In this document: piece by piece, positions 3,384-44,553 of the stretch
How positions within the stretch are numbered: position 1 is the stretch's first letter
Layout: the number at the start of each line of letters is the position of its first letter
Assembly (NCBI GenBank): GCA_002304345.1
Contig: NEUU01000020.1
Location: forward strand, 1 to 64,000
DNA: 64,000 nt
DNA from: Verrucomicrobia bacterium Tous-C9LFEB
GTDB lineage: Bacteria; Verrucomicrobiota; Verrucomicrobiia; Methylacidiphilales; UBA1321
Direction: 5' to 3'
Notes under the pieces: generated by a model
What the model was told of the DNA's origin: nothing
Database searches by the model: none
The model's input: only the letters and a program-made list of their open reading frames with translations
Program-made: the position numbers and the translations under genes

Positions 3384-5696
3384 CTATTTGATATGGAACT
3401 CCACCTCTTGCAGCGAATCGAGACAGCCTCCCACGCCCACAACATATTTTCCCGGTTCAACGACAAACCGCTGCTGCGCGTTGTTAACGCCCATTTCATT
3501 CATGCCCAAAGAAAAGACAATCCGCCGAGATTCACCCGCTTTCAGAGAGATGCGTTGGAATGTCACGAGCTGACGAAAAGGTCGCGCCACGCTGCCTCCA
3601 AAAACCGTCAAATATAATTGCACCACTTCATCCCCAGTCCGTTGACTGGTATTCTTAACATCGACAGATACAGTTACCGTTTCTCCGGGAGCTGCAGATG
3701 CTTTATCCAACTGCGGCATCCCATAGGAAAAAGTCGAATAGCTCAGACCAAAACCAAACGAAAGCCTCGCCGCTCCTGTATGATCAATATAGTTATGACG
3801 CGGGAGATGCGTATTATAGAAAACAGGAAGCTGCGCTTCACTTCTGGGAAATGACACCGGCAAACGTCCCGCTGGATTAATCTCACCAAAGATCGCCTCC
3901 GCAACAGCTCGCCCCCCTTCCATGCCCGGATACCAAGCCAATAGTACCGCATCGGAATAATCCAAGACCTCATCCACAATCAGCGGACGCCCCATGATTA
4001 AAACCGTAACAAGACGTTTTCCTTGAGAGCGAAGCTGACGCAACAACTCCAACTGCAGTCCACCCAATCTCAGGTTCGCCCGGTCGTAGCCCTCGCCACT
4101 CTCCTTGTCGAATTCAGAATCGAGTTCAACTTCCTTGACGCGAGCGGCCCCGTTCTCCAGAAATCCACTTTCACTATCGGCTGCGCTTGACCCACCCAAA
4201 ACCAAGACAACCACATCCGCTTCACTCGCTACAGTCAGCGCTTCCTTTAGCCAATCTCCACGCAACGAGCGGATCTTGCAGCCTTTACCATACTGAACCT
4301 GAATCCCTCTTTTTGCCCCCAACTCTCGCATGCCTTCCAGCACTGTCACCACGTCACATCTATTCTGCGGTGCCGTGTAATCCCCGAGTTGATTCATCGG
4401 AGTATCTGCATTGGGTCCGATGACCGCAATTTTTTTGACACCCTCTAGTGGCAGCGTGGCGGCGGAATTCGAAAGCAATGTGATCGACTGGCGCGCTGCT
4501 TCGAGTGCCACCCGGCGATGCTTCGCGCACCCGATCACTTGGGCAACCTCCCCTTGTTTGGGATATGGGTTCTCGAACAATCCCATCCGAAACTTAATCG
4601 ACAAGACGCGCGCCACCGCTCGATCCAAATCCTCCATCGTAATCAGGCCACGATCAAGCGCCTCACGCAGTCCCCTCGAATAGAAATCGATGCAGCCTTC
4701 ATCCGTATCAATACCTGCCTTCAGCGCTTTTGCACAAGCCTCGGCATCATCCAAGACAAAGCGATGGTGCTTGAGGTTTGGAATAGCACCGCGATCCGAA
4801 ACAACAAAGCCATTGAATCCCAATTCGCCGCGCAATATATCCCCCAGCAAATGTTGGTTGGCAGCGCACGGAATTCCATCAACAGAGTGGTAGGCGCACA
4901 TGACGGATTGCGCGCCGGCTTTGATGGCAGCCGCAAACGGCTTGAGTTGAATATTCCTCAATTCAACAGGCCCCAGATGAACAGGCGCAGAGTTGTGACC
5001 ACCTTCAGGATCGCCATGCGCCGCAAAGTGTTTGACTGTGGCGAAAGGTCGGTTTGGTTTTGGGAAGATTCCCCCTTGCAATCCCTCCACATAAGCACGG
5101 CCCATGTGGGCGGCTAATGTCGGATCTTCCGAAAAATCCTCCTCCACCCGCGACCAGCGCGGATCCCTAGCCAAGTCTAAAATCGGACCGTATACCGTAT
5201 GAATGCCCGCAGTCCCACCTTCAGCCCCAATCACCTCTCCAATCTTCTTGAGCAAGTCAGGATTCCACGTTGCCCCCAATCCAAGCCCCGTCGGGAAAAC
5301 AGTACCGCCTAGCGCCATCAAGCCATGCGGTGCTTCCTCAGCCAACAGCAATGGAATACCCCATCGCGAATGCTCAATGACATGCTTCTGAAAAAGACAG
5401 ACCGCGCGTTCCATCAGCGAGGGAGTAAGCCCCGTACTCCAACTGCGTCCGCTCCACCAATCAGCACGGAGTAGTCCGTACATGGAACCAATCGGTACCC
5501 GGGAAAAGCTTTCTACGAATTCCCGCTTAAGGGATATGTCATCACCCCGTCTCTCATAGGAACGAAAGCCATCGAGCTTGCAAAGTTGTCCGATCTTTTC
5601 TTCCGCACTCATTCGCCCGAGAAGATCACGCACCCGCTTTTCAACGGACTGCTTGGGATCGCGGTAAATACTCATTCCAGAAAATTTCGCCTTCAT
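3384..5696 (-). CDS. GH3 family beta-glycosidase
   Basis: About 770 residues, typical for GH3. The N-terminal (alpha/beta)8 domain carries RDPRWSR, the KHFAAHG loop and the nucleophile Asp in VVSDRG (about residue 301 from ATG 5696). Most GH3 enzymes have SDW or SDY; Arg here is unusual. The second domain (about 400-620) has AVIGPNA and ends with FGFGLSYSTF; a fibronectin III-like domain closes the protein. No clear signal peptide. ATG 5696 lies 8 bp after the upstream gene's stop; an in-frame TTG at 5720 would overlap that gene, and ATG 5675 is also possible. It probably releases terminal beta-linked sugars (glucose, xylose or arabinose) from imported oligosaccharides. Confidence 0.9.
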   Translation of the reverse strand: MKAKFSGMSIYRDPKQSVEKRVRDLLGRMSAEEKIGQLCKLDGFRSYERRGDDISLKREFVESFSRVPIGSMYGLLRADWWSGRSWSTGLTPSLMERAVCLFQKHVIEHSRWGIPLLLAEEAPHGLMALGGTVFPTGLGLGATWNPDLLKKIGEVIGAEGGTAGIHTVYGPILDLARDPRWSRVEEDFSEDPTLAAHMGRAYVEGLQGGIFPKPNRPFATVKHFAAHGDPEGGHNSAPVHLGPVELRNIQLKPFAAAIKAGAQSVMCAYHSVDGIPCAANQHLLGDILRGELGFNGFVVSDRGAIPNLKHHRFVLDDAEACAKALKAGIDTDEGCIDFYSRGLREALDRGLITMEDLDRAVARVLSIKFRMGLFENPYPKQGEVAQVIGCAKHRRVALEAARQSITLLSNSAATLPLEGVKKIAVIGPNADTPMNQLGDYTAPQNRCDVVTVLEGMRELGAKRGIQVQYGKGCKIRSLRGDWLKEALTVASEADVVVLVLGGSSAADSESGFLENGAARVKEVELDSEFDKESGEGYDRANLRLGGLQLELLRQLRSQGKRLVTVLIMGRPLIVDEVLDYSDAVLLAWYPGMEGGRAVAEAIFGEINPAGRLPVSFPRSEAQLPVFYNTHLPRHNYIDHTGAARLSFGFGLSYSTFSYGMPQLDKASAAPGETVTVSVDVKNTSQRTGDEVVQLYLTVFGGSVARPFRQLVTFQRISLKAGESRRIVFSLGMNEMGVNNAQQRFVVEPGKYVVGVGGCLDSLQEVEFHIK

Positions 5697-5704
5697 ACCT
5701 CGAT

Positions 5705-6322
5705 TTATTTCCGAATCCAAATTCCCACAATTTCGCCAAAGTATAACTTATGCGCGCCGTCTTCCGGGCGGGAAGTCTCGCCCTTCTTGGGAAACCAACA
5801 TTCCACACGAGTCCGGTCGGCATAAATTTTTTTACACTGAATAATCATTCTCGCCTCGGCATAGGCCATGCCCGGTTTCAGCGACAGTGGAGTCAGGCCG
5901 GATTCCTTGACCTTATCGACCTCGCGACCTGATTTAGTGCCAAAGAGCTTGAGCTGTGGCCGGTATTTTTCCTCGAAGAAGGAGAGCGTAAAATAGCTCT
6001 CCTTCTCAAGAAATTCATAAGTATAGCGTGTATTGTAAACGAGGATAAAGGCCACGGGATGTCGCCACATTCCGAATCCACCCCAACTGGCCGTCATCCC
6101 ATTGAACTTTGTTTCATCGCCCGCACTGATAATCATCCAGTCGTGGCCTATCAACTTGAACGTGTTGTCACGGATCTCTTCTGGAGCAATGCTCTTGAAC
6201 CGATCCGTCACCTCTTTAGGAGGAAGTGGAACGACAGATGGCTTCTCATCCTCCGCCTCCGCCCGGGTCAAAGTAGGACAGCTCCATAGCACGAGCAGAC
6301 ACAACCAACATAGAATGCGCAT
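5705..6322 (-). CDS. Exported flavin reductase-like protein (FMN-binding split barrel)
   Basis: 205 residues. The N-terminal 22 residues form a signal peptide (MRILCWLCLLVL, cleavage near RAEA). The rest matches the flavin reductase-like split barrel: GHDWMIISAGD, a MTASWGGFGMWRHPVAF block, RYTYEFLE, YFTLSFF and GREVDKVKESGLTP. Homologues bind FMN and are normally cytoplasmic, so an apparent export signal on a glycosidase-operon member is odd. A lipoprotein is less likely because the residues before Cys (LWSC) do not fit a lipobox. Its role in glycan use is unknown. Confidence 0.75.
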   Translation of the reverse strand: MRILCWLCLLVLWSCPTLTRAEAEDEKPSVVPLPPKEVTDRFKSIAPEEIRDNTFKLIGHDWMIISAGDETKFNGMTASWGGFGMWRHPVAFILVYNTRYTYEFLEKESYFTLSFFEEKYRPQLKLFGTKSGREVDKVKESGLTPLSLKPGMAYAEARMIIQCKKIYADRTRVECWFPKKGETSRPEDGAHKLYFGEIVGIWIRK

Positions 6323-6351: not shown

Positions 6352-7287
6352 TTATAGCCCCTTAAGACAGGCATCGATGATTTCGTCTAGGTCTCCCTCA
6401 GCCAGGCCAATACAGGTATCGGCGGCTCCGTAATAGACCCGCAAACGCCGTTTCTCCATGTCGGCAATCGCTCCCGTGGTGAAAACACAGTTGGGTGTGC
6501 GGCCTGTCTGCTCGTACGGTTCTTCCGCGGTGAGAAGATAACTTTCCATCCGACCGATTATCTTCTCCGGATCTTCCAAATCGAGTAACACCGCTCCAAG
6601 TGAATAGCTCACCGTTGAACAACTGGAAGAAACGCCATGAATGATCTCCAGCCAGCCTTTTTCTGTTTTGATCGGCGGAGTCGGACCTATCTTCTCCCAG
6701 TTCCAATTCGTGTATGGCCCCATCAGAAAACGGTACTGTCCCCAATGGATCAGATCTGGAGATTTAGACAACCAGATATTGCCGTCAGCCTGGCCCGCCC
6801 CGCCATAGGGACGATCCAGCCGCACGTAATATCCACCCACTTTCTCCGGAAAGAGGCAGGGCACCCGGTTATGAGGCAAAGCTACGATGTCCATGAATTC
6901 AAACGTCTTAAAATCCGTAGTCTTGTACATCAGATCAATGCACCCCTTCGGCGAATTTCCAGGACGAATTATATAATAGGTATCGCCAATCTGGGTAATG
7001 CGACAATCGATGGGATGATTATCCAAATCGCCAAACCTGCGTTCCGGATCTCGGGTAAAGGCTGGTTCTGGATTGATTGTGAAATCGACACCATTATCGC
7101 TCTCCGCCACATGCACCCGGGCATAAGCCTGGTTGCGGAGAAGGATGGACAGCAAGAGAATGGTCTTGCCGTTGTACATGATCTGACCGGGATTGAAGAC
7201 GACATCAGCAGAACCAAAAGGGAAATCAGCAGGCTTGATGATTGGGTTCGCTGGGTGCCGTTTAAGCAGAGTAGGTTGTCGGAACAT
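6352..7287 (-). CDS. GH130 family glycosidase/phosphorylase, second copy
   Basis: About 311 residues. The propeller pattern of GH130 is clear: NPIIKPADFP, the IDCR segment (Asp in the catalytic position), GPTPPIKTEKGWLEIIHG, YSLGAVLLDLEDPEKI and FTTGAI followed by YYGAADT. It shares only the family skeleton with the protein at 2332-3342, so the two may handle different oligosaccharides or chain positions. ATG 7287 is chosen because the longer TTG start at 7335 would overlap the preceding pilin gene by 22 bp. No signal peptide, hence cytoplasmic. It lies 29 bp before the flavin reductase-like gene. Confidence 0.88.
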   Translation of the reverse strand: MFRQPTLLKRHPANPIIKPADFPFGSADVVFNPGQIMYNGKTILLLSILLRNQAYARVHVAESDNGVDFTINPEPAFTRDPERRFGDLDNHPIDCRITQIGDTYYIIRPGNSPKGCIDLMYKTTDFKTFEFMDIVALPHNRVPCLFPEKVGGYYVRLDRPYGGAGQADGNIWLSKSPDLIHWGQYRFLMGPYTNWNWEKIGPTPPIKTEKGWLEIIHGVSSSCSTVSYSLGAVLLDLEDPEKIIGRMESYLLTAEEPYEQTGRTPNCVFTTGAIADMEKRRLRVYYGAADTCIGLAEGDLDEIIDACLKGL

Positions 7288-7313
7288 AGGTGTGATCAAT
7301 GGCTGGTTTATTG

Positions 7314-8015
7314 TTAGAAAGATTCGACGTGCCAATCAAAGAACAGGTAGTTGCGCTTTGTATGCGCCATGGTATCGACGACCGTGTAACTCGCGGATGT
7401 CGCATAAGCGGTGTCGTAGTCATGGAAGGCGATGACTCGACTCAATCCACCGACATAATCGACCGTCGTCCCGTTCGATAGCTTCACCACGCTCTTAATA
7501 CCGGAAGCGTTACTGGCCAGAAAACTCATCTTCATTCCAGATTTATGAGGGCCTCCATAGGTTTCCCCGCTAAGGAACGCAAACACCGTCCCGACTCCAG
7601 GGACATACATATCCTTGACCATATAGGAGATAAAGTTTGCCTTCTTTGCCTCGGCTAATGATTTGGATGCTCCAGGACAAATAAGTTCCTTAATGAACAT
7701 ATATTTATGAGGTATAAGCGTATAGCCCATGTACGGCGCAATCTTCGAACCAAGATAGTCCGTGTCAGGCTGTACATAGACAGTCACTCCATTAAGCGCA
7801 TAGGGAAGCCGGTCATCATTTTCCACGGTGTATAGTTGTATTGCTGCGGCCATGCAGCGCAAATTCTGCACGCATTGCGCAGAGGAGGCATATTTTCGGG
7901 CGTAATTCAGACCGGGAATCATCAGCGCCATTAAGACAGCAAGAACCCCAATCACCACCATGAGTTCCACGAGCGTGAATCCGGAAATCTTTCCCAATCT
8001 CTTTTGAGTATTCAT
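7314..8015 (-). CDS. Type IV pilin-like protein (prepilin-type N-terminal domain)
   Basis: 233 residues. The N-terminus has KISGFTLVELMVVIG, a textbook prepilin cleavage and methylation motif with a following hydrophobic helix. The middle has AQCVQNLRCMAAAIQLY and the C-terminus ends LFFDWHVESF, a short DWHVE tail shared with the pilin-like protein at 39039-39704. It is embedded in a glycosidase operon, 12 bp after the carbohydrate-binding-like gene. Inferred role: a minor pseudopilin-like or surface component specific to this locus. Known family function is limited to membrane insertion and possible assembly into a pilus or type II secretion pseudopilus. Confidence 0.87.
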   Translation of the reverse strand: MNTQKRLGKISGFTLVELMVVIGVLAVLMALMIPGLNYARKYASSAQCVQNLRCMAAAIQLYTVENDDRLPYALNGVTVYVQPDTDYLGSKIAPYMGYTLIPHKYMFIKELICPGASKSLAEAKKANFISYMVKDMYVPGVGTVFAFLSGETYGGPHKSGMKMSFLASNASGIKSVVKLSNGTTVDYVGGLSRVIAFHDYDTAYATSASYTVVDTMAHTKRNYLFFDWHVESF

Positions 8016-8027
8016 GATCCTTCCGCG

Positions 8028-8984
8028 CTATTTTGAAGTAAATGACATATCGTCGAAGTAGATCTTCCCCTTCGCCTCTTTACCCCAACCGAGACAGAGA
8101 TACATCGTTTTATAAAGAAGGTCTGGATACTTGTCCGTTTCAGTCGGCACCTCTGTCGTCACTTCGTACTCTTTCCAATCCGTATCCACCTTTAATTTTT
8201 TGCCTTTATAGAAATGACTACCCGTATGACGTACGGCATAGCCCTGAATGATCGCGGTAATCTGACACTCCTGATCCGCCTTCGCCCAGAATTTGAAGCT
8301 GACACTACGCCCCAGTTCAACAGGAAGATACATGCTGGCAATTTCCCCCGCTCCATCCATTTGCACGCAGAGACTTTTCTCTCCGGATGTAAAATCCTTG
8401 ATCGGCACGATCAGTGGAGGCTGAAACTTTCCCTCACGATTATTAGCCCTCCATGCCGCAGGAACAGCGAGTCCATTTTCGAAATTTCCGTCCGGCAACG
8501 TATTCTCTTTGAATTGGTCAACACCGACCTCGGCAATCTCGATGTTCTTGAGGCTCACCGTCAATTCCGTCTCGGGATTGATAAAAAAACCGAGTTTGAA
8601 CCGATTAGATTCTTTGGTATAGAAATAGGCGGTATAGCTTTCCCACTCCGTACTCAAGGAATAGCCATAAGTGTAGTCCTGCTCTCCATCCGGAGTAAGC
8701 GTCAACTGAAATGGAGTTTTCGTGGCTACGCCTCCGACGGTGCTTTTCATTTTCCAAGTCACTCGGTAGTAGCTTCCAGTCTTGGTTTCAATTTCTGCGA
8801 TCAATTTAGGCCATCCCGTCGTAACCGCCAAGCTATATACGACTCCACCCTCCTCCCGATGCTTTGTCCAAGGGGCCGTCACTTTGATCGGCAAATCCTC
8901 AGCGATACTGCCAGCCCCCATCACGATAAGAAGAAAAGCGATCCTCGACATGAAACCTAATCTACATTGATTTAATTGCTTCAT
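8028..8984 (-). CDS. Secreted carbohydrate-binding-like protein (CBM4/9-type fold)
   Basis: About 318 residues. ATG 8984 is preferred because AGAGG stands 7 nt upstream and a signal peptide follows (GFMSRIAFLLIVMGAGSIA). Two beta-sandwich units can be read: residues about 30-150 and 160-318. The second has the CenC-like pattern LPDGNFENG, FWAKADQE, WKEYEVTTEVP and ends IYFDDMSFTSK, typical of CBM4/9-like modules. No catalytic domain is visible. It lies 10 bp after the large GH39-like gene and probably binds the same extracellular glycan or works as an accessory protein. Confidence 0.7.
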   Translation of the reverse strand: MKQLNQCRLGFMSRIAFLLIVMGAGSIAEDLPIKVTAPWTKHREEGGVVYSLAVTTGWPKLIAEIETKTGSYYRVTWKMKSTVGGVATKTPFQLTLTPDGEQDYTYGYSLSTEWESYTAYFYTKESNRFKLGFFINPETELTVSLKNIEIAEVGVDQFKENTLPDGNFENGLAVPAAWRANNREGKFQPPLIVPIKDFTSGEKSLCVQMDGAGEIASMYLPVELGRSVSFKFWAKADQECQITAIIQGYAVRHTGSHFYKGKKLKVDTDWKEYEVTTEVPTETDKYPDLLYKTMYLCLGWGKEAKGKIYFDDMSFTSK

Positions 8985-40996: not shown

Positions 40997-42040
40997 TCAT
41001 TGAGAATTCAGAACCGACTCGATCGGCAAATCCGCCCGCAACCCGTTGGCCTGAGTCCATTCCGGGTTATGCAATTTCGAAAGATACTTGTGTCCCGAGT
41101 CGCATAGAATCGTGACGATCACCTGCCCCGGACCGCGCTCCTTCGCCAATCGCACCGCTCCGGCTACATTGATCGCAGAAGAAAGTCCGAGGAAAAGACC
41201 TTCCTGCTGGCGCAGATGCTGCAGAATGGTGAACGCAGTTTGATCGTCGATGCGATACGCCGCATCCATCTCCAGTCCTTCCAGATTCTTCGTCACGCGC
41301 CCTTGGCCAATTCCTTCCGCGATGGAGTCACCGTCGTTCGTCTCCAGATTGTGCTGCGTGAACCACGACCACATCGCCGCGCCGTAGGGGTCCGCGCAAG
41401 CCGTGGCGATCCTCGCATTTTGGGATTTGAGGTAGAGACTTGTTCCCGCCAGCGTGCCGCCCGTACCCACCGACGCCACGAAGCCGCTCACTTCGCCCTT
41501 TGTCTGCTCCCAGATTTCCGGGCCGGTGGTTTTGAAATGCGCGTCGCGGTTCGCCGTGTTGTCGAATTGGTTCGCCCAGAAATAACCGCGCTCCTGGGCA
41601 AGCCGTTGCGCCACCTTGTTGTAATTGCCGGGATCTTTGAATGGCTTTTCCGGCACCACGAGCACCTCCGCGCCGAGCGAACGCAGGAGCTGAATCTTTT
41701 CCGGCGACTGATTTTCCGGAATCACAATCACCGTGCGATACCCACGCGCCTGGCCGATCACGGTCAAACCGATCCCGGTGTTGCCCGCCGTGCCTTCGAT
41801 GATGGTGTCGCCCGGTTTGAGGTTGCCCGCAGATTCCGCCGCTTCAATGATTCCGAGCGCGGCGCGGTCTTTGACGGAACCGCCGGGATTCATGAATTCG
41901 GCCTTGCCGAGGATTTCACTTCCCGTCAGGTCGGAAAGATGGTTGAGCCGGATGAGAGGCGTCTTGCCCACATGATGGGAAATGCCGGAGTATGCGTTCA
42001 TATAAGCCAGTTCAAAAACAGCCAGCGGAATCTCAATCAC
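40997..42040 (-). CDS. cysK: Cysteine synthase A-like PLP enzyme
   Basis: 347 residues from GTG 42040, which has GGAG 9 nt upstream; ATG 42001 matches the usual family start but has no such site. PLP Lys in GGSVKDR (residue 57 from the GTG), EGTAGNTGIG for substrate binding and SVGTGGTLAG for phosphate binding. Catalyses O-acetylserine + sulfide to cysteine; a cystathionine beta-synthase-type role is possible because of the EGTAGNTG variant. Cytoplasmic. Forms a minus-strand group with a DUF2292 gene 41 bp upstream, usual company for sulfur assimilation. Confidence 0.9.
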   Translation of the reverse strand: MIEIPLAVFELAYMNAYSGISHHVGKTPLIRLNHLSDLTGSEILGKAEFMNPGGSVKDRAALGIIEAAESAGNLKPGDTIIEGTAGNTGIGLTVIGQARGYRTVIVIPENQSPEKIQLLRSLGAEVLVVPEKPFKDPGNYNKVAQRLAQERGYFWANQFDNTANRDAHFKTTGPEIWEQTKGEVSGFVASVGTGGTLAGTSLYLKSQNARIATACADPYGAAMWSWFTQHNLETNDGDSIAEGIGQGRVTKNLEGLEMDAAYRIDDQTAFTILQHLRQQEGLFLGLSSAINVAGAVRLAKERGPGQVIVTILCDSGHKYLSKLHNPEWTQANGLRADLPIESVLNSQ

Positions 42041-42081: not shown

Positions 42082-42297
42082 TTACCGCGACGGCGGCACC
42101 GGCAGAGGCTGGGTGAAACGCGAGCGCTGGCGGCGATCGATCTGCACAATCTTCCCGTCGTGCACCACGATTTCCACCGAGCCGTAATCGAGTCCCTCGA
42201 GCGAACGCAAAATCCGGCGAATCGCCTCCGCCTCCGGCTTGCTTTCGCTGGCCAGTTTGTTGGTTTTCGCATCCACGGAAGTTAAAAGCGTGCTCAT
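42082..42297 (-). CDS. DUF2292 (YezD-like) small protein
   Basis: 71 residues. The core ILRSLEGLDYGSVEIVVHDGKIVQIDR is the DUF2292/YezD signature, a small basic protein often encoded with sulfate-assimilation and cysteine genes. ATG 42297 is taken; homology starts soon after. The job of the family is unknown. Gaps of 10 bp to the gene before and 41 bp to cysK indicate one operon. Confidence 0.82.
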   Translation of the reverse strand: MSTLLTSVDAKTNKLASESKPEAEAIRRILRSLEGLDYGSVEIVVHDGKIVQIDRRQRSRFTQPLPVPPSR

Positions 42298-42307
42298 TAG
42301 TGTCCCC

Positions 42308-42529
42308 CTAAATCCCCAAACCCAGATCATCAAACGGATCCGGTTGCGGCGCGGTTTTGGTTTTCTGGCAAGCGCGCTCGTACGCGATTTGATACAGCTC
42401 CGCCATCTTCTGCAGCTCGATCGGCGTCAAATTCGCCAGCAAGGCCTGCGGGCACATGACGTATACTTCGGGATCTTGCGGGGTGGGAGGACGCATCGAA
42501 TCAGCGGTAGTAAAGCGTTGCCGTTGCAT
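42308..42529 (-). CDS. Hypothetical small protein
   Basis: 73 residues, no recognised family. MQRQRFTTADSMRPPTP is followed by PEVYVMCPQALLANLTPIELQKMAELYQIAYERACQ, a likely amphipathic helical segment, and an acidic end (DPFDDLGLGI). No signal peptide or membrane segment. It is the first gene of the sulfur group, 10 bp before DUF2292. Confidence 0.6.
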   Translation of the reverse strand: MQRQRFTTADSMRPPTPQDPEVYVMCPQALLANLTPIELQKMAELYQIAYERACQKTKTAPQPDPFDDLGLGI

Positions 42530-42539
42530 GTTGGAATTA

Positions 42540-42560
42540 TGTCTATCGACAATATAGACA
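42540..42560 (-). promoter_or_regulatory. Inverted repeat upstream of the sulfur operon
   Basis: TGTCTAT and ATAGACA arms (7 bp) are separated by 7 nt, starting 11 bp before the start codon at 42529, in an AT-rich stretch. The position fits an operator or overlaps the promoter -10 region. Rrf2-type regulators often control cysteine genes through such sites; this link is a guess. Confidence 0.4.
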
Positions 42561-42750: not shown

Positions 42751-42777
42751 CTCCTGGGAACTGCTGGTACCAAGGAG
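42751..42777 (+). promoter_or_regulatory. Strong RBS inside a possible sequestering hairpin
   Basis: AAGGAG at 42772-42777 stands 9 nt before ATG 42787, the clearest Shine-Dalgarno site in the window. CTCCTGG at 42751-42757 can pair with CCAAGGAG at 42770-42777 (one bulged A), hiding the site. This could be translational control. Pairing was judged by eye. Confidence 0.5.
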
Positions 42778-42786
42778 ATAACACGA

Positions 42787-43245
42787 ATGAACACGATGAT
42801 GATGGATCGCTCGATGACCATGGGCATGACCCCGATGACCACCCCCGCCATGACCATGCCCACCACGGCTGGCATGAACATGATGATGATTCCGCGTTGC
42901 ACGATGAAGATGGAAAAGTGCAAGGACGGCATGAAGATCATGTGTTCCTGTACCGATGAAACCGCCGCCGCCATGATGCAGAATATGTGCAACATGATGG
43001 GCACCGGCATGATGAGCTGCCACATGATGATGAACGGCATGATGATGATGTCGTGCAACATGATGATGGGCATGTGCAAGTGCGAGATGACCAAGGATGG
43101 CATGTGCTTCACCTGCACCAGCGGCGACGCCAAATGCTGCCAGATGATCCAAGCCTGCTGCGAAGGCATGATGACCATGATGAACTGCGGTTGCTCCTGC
43201 TGCCTGTGCATGAACAACACGCCCGTCTGCTGCGGCTGCTGCTAA
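42787..43245 (+). CDS. Methionine/cysteine-rich putative metal-binding protein
   Basis: 152 residues, of which by hand count 44 are Met and 24 Cys (about 45 % together). Residues 1-35 are Met/Thr/Pro-rich without Cys. Residues 36-115 mix Met clusters (MMMM, CHMMMNG, CNMMMGMCKCEM) with CxC pairs. The last 40 have many Cys (CGCSCCLC, ending CCGCC). No signal peptide or membrane helix. Met motifs and Cys clusters bind soft metals such as Cu(I) or Ag(I), so a metallothionein-like or copper-storage role is the best guess. A strong RBS and a clear terminator support a real, well-expressed gene. No known family recognised. Confidence 0.85.
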   Translation: MNTMMMDRSMTMGMTPMTTPAMTMPTTAGMNMMMIPRCTMKMEKCKDGMKIMCSCTDETAAAMMQNMCNMMGTGMMSCHMMMNGMMMMSCNMMMGMCKCEMTKDGMCFTCTSGDAKCCQMIQACCEGMMTMMNCGCSCCLCMNNTPVCCGCC

Positions 43246-43297: not shown

Positions 43298-43308
43298 TTC
43301 CCTTGAAA

Positions 43309-43343
43309 CTCCCGGAGTTGTCTTCAGCTCCGGGAGTTTTTTT
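43309..43343 (+). terminator. Rho-independent terminator
   Basis: A hairpin CTCCCGGAG (43309-43317) with CTCCGGGAG (43328-43336) is followed by seven T (43337-43343). It ends the transcript of the Met/Cys-rich gene. Confidence 0.88.
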
Positions 43344-43398: not shown

Positions 43399-44553
43399 AT
43401 GCCCCGGCCCGCCCAACGTCTTCAGGTTTTCACGGAATCGGTTATCCGCGAGATGACCCGCATTGCGAATCGCCACCAGGCGATCAACCTCGCGCAGGGC
43501 TTTCCCGATTTCGATCCGCCCGCCGTGTTGCTCGATGCACTCACCACCGCCATTCGCGGGCCGCATCATCAATACGCCATCACGTGGGGTGCCCCGCGTT
43601 TTCGTAATGCGCTCGCCCGCAAGCACAGTCATTTCAGCGGACTCTCCATCGATCCCGAAAAACACATCGTCACCACCTGCGGCAGCACCGAAGCGATGAT
43701 GGTGTCCATGATGACTGCGTGCGATCCCGGCGACAAAGTCATCGTCTTCTCGCCGTTCTACGAAAACTATGCGGCGGACGCGATCCTCTCCGGCGCACAA
43801 CCGATCTACGTGCCGCTGCGCGCACCCGATTTTACCTTCGACCCGGAGGAACTCCGTCGCGCGTTCGCGTCGGGCGCGAAGGCCATCGTGGTATGCAATC
43901 CCTCGAACCCGAGCGGCAAAGTCTTCACGCGCGAAGAGCTCCTCTCCATCGCCGCGCTCGCCGAGGAGTTCGACACCTTCGTCCTCATGGACGAAGTCTA
44001 CGAGCACATCGTCTACGCGCCGCACCAGCACACCGTCTTCGCCACCCTGCCCGGCATGTGGGAACGCACACTCAGTTGCGGTTCGCTTTCGAAAACCTAC
44101 TCCATCACCGGCTGGCGACTCGGCTACGTGATCGCCCCGGAAGCGCTCATCGCGCAGGCGCGCAAGGTGCACGACTTCCTCACCGTCGGCGCGGCCGCTC
44201 CGTTGCAGGAAGCCGCCGTGACGGCGCTCGAATTGCCAGACAGCTACTACGCCGAACTCCTCCGCGAATACACGGCGAAGCGCGATGTGATGCTCGGCTA
44301 TTTGAAGCAAACCGGTCTCCCCTACACGGAACCGCAAGGCGCGTATTACGTTCTCGTCGACATCTCCTCGTTCGGTTTCAAGACCGACATGGAATGCGCG
44401 CAATGGATGGCGCAGGAAGTCGGCGTCGCGGGCGTTCCCGGCTCGAGTTTCTTCCGCGAACCGGAACACCGCTATATCCGCTTCCACTTCGCCAAGCGCG
44501 AAGAAACGCTGCACGCCGCAGGTCAACGCCTCGTCGACAAACTCAAACGCTGA
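43399..44553 (+). CDS. PLP-dependent class I/II aminotransferase
   Basis: 384 residues, fold type I. NLAQGFPDFDPP at the start, VTTCGSTEAMM, VVCNPSNPSGKVF, Asp in VLMDEVYEH (198), and PLP Lys in GSLSKTYSITGWRLGY (232). The C-terminal Arg fits YIRFHFAKREE. Cytoplasmic. Substrates may be aspartate, aromatic amino acids or glutamine-type transamination; the QGFPDFDPP opening recalls the methionine aminotransferase/KAT group, which would suit the nearby sulfur genes, but this is weak. It stands alone after the terminator at 43309. Confidence 0.88.
   Translation: MPRPAQRLQVFTESVIREMTRIANRHQAINLAQGFPDFDPPAVLLDALTTAIRGPHHQYAITWGAPRFRNALARKHSHFSGLSIDPEKHIVTTCGSTEAMMVSMMTACDPGDKVIVFSPFYENYAADAILSGAQPIYVPLRAPDFTFDPEELRRAFASGAKAIVVCNPSNPSGKVFTREELLSIAALAEEFDTFVLMDEVYEHIVYAPHQHTVFATLPGMWERTLSCGSLSKTYSITGWRLGYVIAPEALIAQARKVHDFLTVGAAAPLQEAAVTALELPDSYYAELLREYTAKRDVMLGYLKQTGLPYTEPQGAYYVLVDISSFGFKTDMECAQWMAQEVGVAGVPGSSFFREPEHRYIRFHFAKREETLHAAGQRLVDKLKR

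Follow-up and report, generated by a model that had tools for sequence, protein, structure and literature searches.

Bacteria are known to lay down reserves of carbon, phosphate, nitrogen and iron, and to our knowledge no bacterial protein storing sulfur amino acids has been described. A search of the literature on sulfur-amino-acid storage proteins returned only examples from plant seeds, such as delta-zein and the 2S albumins (PMC3420316), which are rich in Met and Cys and there constitute a sulfur amino acid reserve. The protein described here, encoded in a 64,000-nt stretch of DNA (the window), is likewise Met/Cys-rich; we claim no homology, and whereas the plant proteins are eukaryotic and made in seeds, ours is bacterial and stands under predicted riboswitch-type control in Clostridium. 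Bacterial metallothioneins (SmtA/BmtA, MymT) provide another parallel, being small, Cys-rich and endowed with potential soft-metal ligands. In comparison with these, however, the Met/Cys protein is longer, contains more Met than Cys, has no Pfam match, is predicted to adopt a duplicated beta-beta-alpha-beta-beta fold, and lies in a sulfur rather than a metal neighbourhood. The copper storage proteins Csp1 and Csp3 are also reminiscent of it, as they are small and soluble, contain many Cys and embody the idea of storage, yet they form four-helix bundles, whereas the Met/Cys protein is predicted to consist mostly of strands with two helices and would thus fall outside the Csp class. With regard to control, in the ubiG-mccBA operon of C. 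acetobutylicum an antisense S-box permits expression only at high SAM (PMC9943018, PMC2940859). The Clostridium Met/Cys loci resemble this operon in carrying an antisense SAM riboswitch on the 3' side, with expression at high SAM (here predicted), and in having a cysteine-linked element on the sense strand. The targets differ, as ubiG-mccB-mccA encodes Met-to-Cys enzymes and the Clostridium target is a Met/Cys-rich protein, and so does the sense element, which is a Cys T-box in ubiG and a Cys-rich leader peptide with terminator in the Met/Cys loci.

The Met/Cys gene of the window (42787..43245, plus strand) encodes a protein of 152 aa with 44 Met and 24 Cys (45%), precisely the numbers counted by hand in the original prediction. 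Across its whole open stretch, the frame contains 40% Met plus Cys; among all 223 stop-to-stop frames of the window with 100 aa or more, the next-highest reaches 12% and the mean is 3.9%. The gene is single-copy in its own genome. A Shine-Dalgarno motif read from the sequence (AAGGAG, 42772..42777, plus strand) lies 9 nt 5' of the ATG at 42787, and the intrinsic terminator that had been proposed downstream folds as a 16-bp stem followed by a U run (43305..43343, plus strand; -32.9 kcal/mol, z -5.9), a stability reached by none of 200 shuffles. Judged by its 31 intact relatives and by dN being smaller than dS in every pair tested, the ORF is a genuine gene, as had been claimed; dN/dS spans about 0.03-0.6 over these pairs, indicating purifying selection, with 0.03-0.06 among the Clostridium genes and about 0.4 between the window gene and its nearest relative. 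The possibility of a low-complexity artefact was ruled out by the same homologues and dN/dS relation, together with the conservation of D, G, N, P and E positions. Downstream of the gene, a co-directional aminotransferase (43399-44553) matched methionine aminotransferase models below their cut-offs.

No usable match to the Met/Cys protein was obtained in Pfam, NCBIfam, PHROGs, PADLOC or PDB sequences, so that the earlier statement of no described family holds for every library searched and the protein is, by the tests made here, outside known families. At E up to 1, neither the window protein nor 11 members hit a metallothionein profile in Pfam or NCBIfam, and the copper-storage families likewise gave no profile match. 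BLAST searches of phages, plasmids and viral contigs yielded no relatives, which is weak evidence because the low-complexity filter was on. The nearest relative (genome G023, locus L055), from a different family within the same order, shares 68-71% identity. With both proteins as queries, a contig scan revealed eleven loci in Planctomycetota (Isosphaeraceae), Omnitrophota, Fibrobacterota, Spartobacteria and Clostridium, and profile searches added further members, including divergent Cys-dominated (6-9 Met, 34-35 Cys) and Met-dominated (64-72 Met) proteins. The family set thus comprises 31 intact members from Verrucomicrobiota, Planctomycetota, Omnitrophota, Fibrobacterota and Clostridium; one unconvincing Omnitrophota match (L054, E 8.6e-4) was excluded. 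The distribution is patchy: the gene occurs in 16 of 45 Isosphaeraceae genomes, in very few elsewhere, and in five of 13 genomes of one Clostridium genus, where two copies are decayed, and it is absent from both searched genomes of the window organism's own genus. The family tree separates one Planctomycetota group from a mixed group of Verrucomicrobiota, Omnitrophota, Fibrobacterota and Clostridium; this mixture suggests transfer, with some weak forks and long branches that meet.

The N-terminal Met/Thr/Pro tail (residues 1-34, 42787..42888) varies in length across the family and is predicted to be disordered, with an AlphaFold2 pLDDT below 50 for residues 1-32. In the AlphaFold2 model, it is followed by two units of strand-strand-helix-strand-strand, namely residues 37-92 (42895..43062) and the Cys-richer residues 96-151 (43072..43239). 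This model, built with ten family members, has a core pLDDT mostly between 70 and 87, and independently the profile of residues 37-92 matched that of 96-151 with 97.8% probability and a score of 59, against a maximum of 22.9 among 200 column-shuffled profiles. According to model and profile match, the core is an internal duplication behind a Met-rich tail. The protein had been divided originally into the tail, a mixed centre and a Cys-rich C-terminus; the Cys-richer end stands, whereas the division into centre and end gives way to the two duplicated units. A search of solved and viral predicted structures for the fold found none at E up to 0.001 (best probability 0.41).

Over the 31 members, Met plus Cys amounts to 28-46% of residues, with individual proteins ranging from 6 to 72 Met and from 15 to 35 Cys. 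High sulfur amino acid content, the mark of the sulfur-storage class, is thus found family-wide, together with a trade-off between the two residues: core Met and Cys counts are inversely related (rho -0.84), and the commonest substitute for Cys is Met, and for Met is Cys. The original prediction had suggested a search for homologues with a preserved Met/Cys pattern, and such a pattern exists, as Met or Cys accounts for at least 70% of the 31 members in each of 44 core columns. The trade-off argues that sulfur content is what the family retains. Furthermore, a 16-row alignment contains invariant G48, D57, N83, G84, E100, S112, D114 and P146, among others, as well as five invariant cysteines (C125, C138, C148, C149 and C151).

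Divergent from the Met/Cys gene lies a gene for a 73-aa protein of a second undescribed family (42308..42529, minus strand), which we refer to as the partner; the original prediction was silent on it, as well as on the internal duplication. The partner has no match in Pfam or NCBIfam, and neither the literature nor the family and structure searches revealed anything described for it or for the Met/Cys gene. Its family, about 65-100 aa in length, bears the motif CP..L..LT..E....YxxAYExA and was discovered by an iterated profile seeded with seven small neighbouring proteins and applied to all small frames of the 31 loci. It occurs within 6.5 kb of the Met/Cys gene at 25 of these loci, mostly in divergent orientation, whereas 800 kb of sequence drawn at random from these genomes contains no match to the profile. 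Among 78 related whole genomes, the partner is present in 28 of 32 with the Met/Cys gene and in none of 46 without it. In C. tyrobutyricum both genes are decayed, one of the pair by a frameshift and deletions and the other by three stops. The AlphaFold2 model of the partner, mostly one helix (pTM 0.38), is uninformative. The genomes of the two most divergent Met/Cys members (L030 and L031, Planctomycetota), which have far longer Met/Gly/Pro tails and 64-72 Met, lack a partner gene.

Further along the minus strand, the window contains a gene for a DUF2292/OscA-like protein (42082..42297, likely ATG start at 42297) and one for a CysK-type cysteine synthase (40997..42040; NF007989, 479.8 bits), so that the two divergent genes named originally were recovered by profile matches. 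The former is a neighbour, distinct from the Met/Cys protein; it belongs to DUF2292 (PF10055, 58.5 bits; gathering score 22) but lies below the NCBIfam cut-off for the OscA equivalog (NF033785, 43.7 bits against 85). From their arrangement, the partner, DUF2292 and cysteine synthase genes read as a single putative operon. The sulfur link recurs across phyla and is stronger than originally supposed, as DUF2292/OscA-like genes are located beside the pair at seven loci (the window and six others; 0 in controls) and Rrf2-family regulators at 17 of 31 loci (1 of 40 control regions), and cysteine synthase or cystathionine beta-synthase at five loci (two weaker hits in controls). In contrast, no metal transporter, ATPase, chaperone or metal regulator is recurrent beside the 31 loci, and a scan of the neighbours for motifs of heavy-metal domains and metal ATPases brought up isolated matches only. 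Hence, the metal-linked neighbours expected of a metallothionein were not found, and the recurrent ones are the partner, Rrf2, DUF2292 and CysK/CBS. The cysteine synthase, it had been suggested, could meet the sulfur demand of the Met/Cys protein; its adjacency is confirmed, but the supply logic is possibly reversed, because the prediction for Clostridium is that scarcity of sulfur amino acids turns the partner and OscA on and the Met/Cys protein off.

This prediction stems from the control elements of the Clostridium loci. In all three intact loci (L012, L068 and L069), an antisense S-box lies 218-253 nt beyond the end of the Met/Cys gene; it scores 84.7-89.7 bits with the Rfam model of the SAM riboswitch, for which the gathering score is 44.4. 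The S-box is flanked by a perfect or near-perfect promoter on its 5' side and by a terminator hairpin on its 3' side (z -6.7 in L068 and -4.3 in L012; weak as folded in L069, z -1.1), and read-through past this terminator would run antisense through the Met/Cys gene. The three loci thereby display the ubiG-type arrangement, in which a riboswitch with its own promoter and terminator is read from downstream against the gene and no gene intervenes, while the antisense S-box is absent at the two decayed copies. Four loci (L012, L069, L125 and L126, the last of them decayed) have a sense S-box just 5' of the partner. A tandem of T-box and S-box precedes DUF2292 in L125 (1764-2620), followed by the S-box of the partner; with the T-box specifier read by eye as UGC (Cys), the tandem suggests that DUF2292 here answers to both Cys and Met supply. 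In addition, L012, L068 and L013 have a short frame for a Cys-rich leader peptide 5' of the Met/Cys gene, closing with runs of the type CCMCCC (the core of the peptide), where a terminator hairpin overlaps or directly follows the leader stop (z -5.8 to -6.9); in L069 the leader is degenerate. As a ribosome at the leader stop would disturb the terminator and a Cys-stalled one would not, Cys sufficiency would permit transcription. All cis evidence from Clostridium points in one direction and predicts the Met/Cys protein to be made in plenty of Met/SAM and Cys, and the partner in scarcity. Neither a SAM nor any other riboswitch was found in the window, and none in the other non-Clostridium loci tested.

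The simplest reading of the Clostridium cis evidence, taken together with a family that keeps its sulfur and not Met or Cys per se, is that the Met/Cys protein acts as a reserve or sink of sulfur amino acids, and we give this about an even chance of being correct. Accumulating Met/SAM and Cys would be packed into a compact protein of two duplicated units behind a tail rich in Met, with storage as its presumed purpose. During shortage, its synthesis would stop, and the partner, OscA/DUF2292 and cysteine synthase would come on. In such a scheme, the antisense S-box would silence the Met/Cys gene at low SAM, the Cys-rich leader would let transcription through only if Cys is available, and the same logic may apply in Verrucomicrobiota, where no riboswitch was found. 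As a guess, the partner may mobilise the store or manage it, perhaps by assisting in degradation. Strictly opposite control of the two genes is not universal, since in G023 (L055) and in the Fibrobacterota locus (L010) the partner lies upstream of and co-directional with the Met/Cys gene with no clear terminator in between; it may be a peculiarity of Clostridium or be achieved by other means elsewhere. Taken further, and with rather less than even confidence, this could be the first dedicated bacterial sulfur-amino-acid storage protein, part of a two-gene module of store and mobilising partner that has been passed between phyla and is controlled in Clostridium by opposed antisense and sense SAM riboswitches and a Cys-permissive leader. 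A module so conserved and so closely paired, with a switch linked to SAM, would make sulfur storage directly testable.

Several points speak against a reserve, among them the patchy distribution, the degenerate leader of L069, the co-directional partner at L055 and L010, and the lack of a riboswitch in the window and the other non-Clostridium loci tested. Moreover, a pure store needs its composition alone, but here conservation is strong in the fold and at many Cys positions, which would suit ligand binding too, and the chief weakness is that a shortage of sulfur would probably shut down any protein that costs so much of it (“sulfur sparing”). The last two points lead to the main rival, a binder or store of soft metals (Cu(I), Ag, Hg, Cd) with a new metallothionein-like fold, whose synthesis would be gated by sulfur supply owing to the cost of 68 sulfur amino acids per chain; a metallothionein or copper store is also what the original prediction had pointed to. 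Clusters of Met and Cys can act as ligands for soft metals, the two residues being interchangeable at fixed positions, and the conserved Cys positions, including the five that are invariant in the 16-row alignment, together with the compact conserved fold that is predicted, favour some kind of ligand binding, to which sulfur gating is no obstacle. However, the lack of any recurrent metal gene at the 31 loci and the isolated motif matches, the lack of a match to metallothionein or copper-storage families, and the sulfur-metabolic context given by a dedicated partner and by Rrf2, OscA, CysK, S-box and T-box elements make metal binding, in our view, possible but rather doubtful. If it were correct, a metallothionein-like fold with synthesis tied to sulfur supply would be new as well, and either way two unannotated gene families across five phyla gain a testable function.

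The very high Met and Cys content and the Cys pairs at many positions could also serve a thiol/thioether buffer for redox or reactive sulfur, in which Cys would take up sulfane sulfur or oxidants and Met would be oxidised and repaired; the recurrent Rrf2 regulators, of which some bear three Cys in a motif resembling that of Fe-S or redox sensors, would fit. Against this, neither thioredoxin, Msr, persulfide dioxygenase nor sulfurtransferase is recurrent among the partly annotated neighbours, and the members with the highest Met content are carried by strict anaerobes, so that we judge such a buffer improbable. The extreme codon demand and the sulfur-linked control in cis would even be consistent with a regulatory sink, where translation itself, by using Met- and Cys-tRNA, reports or caps a surplus of sulfur amino acids and the protein is disposable. 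Purifying selection on the protein and the predicted fold with its internal duplication argue that the product matters, and leave this idea hardly credible.

Outside Clostridium, several short sequence elements were found 5' of the genes. In G023 (L055), the perfect or near-perfect palindrome AGTCTATAGACT stands 5' of both the partner and the Met/Cys gene (5380-5391 and 5806-5817; 0.06 expected by chance). The divergent promoter region of the window contains an imperfect palindrome, GTCTATCGACAATATAGAC (42541..42559), which resembles these sites and includes a degenerate form of AGTCTATAGACT at 42541-42550; with one match and 0.46 expected by chance, it is weak. Eight of 17 Isosphaeraceae loci (L057, L059, L060, L062-L065 and L067) share the block GTCATGATnCATCA, preceded by GATCA repeats and located 123-140 nt 5' of the Met/Cys gene; it occurs nowhere in 800 kb of control sequence and is a candidate operator for the adjacent Rrf2 regulators.

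In Clostridium, a small hairpin, GACTRGANNNACYAGAG, is repeated in the 5' UTRs of the Met/Cys gene and also near a partner remnant (L068:5704-5931, L013:5627-5826, L012:309-325, L069:5854-5870 and L126:3422-3438). Its stem varies between CUAG and CUGG with a compensating change on the opposite side, and neither Rfam nor 120 kb of control sequence from Clostridium contains it. The decayed copy of C. tyrobutyricum (L013) is adjoined by what we take, by eye, to be an S-adenosylmethionine synthetase (minus strand, 7220-8492); next to this apparent synthetase lies another short frame rich in Cys (by eye, MKKINIVLYSKNNIIIPELQSYCCCMYISNTMLNI), with three more hairpins of the GACTRGANNNACYAGAG type nearby (L013:6775-7140).
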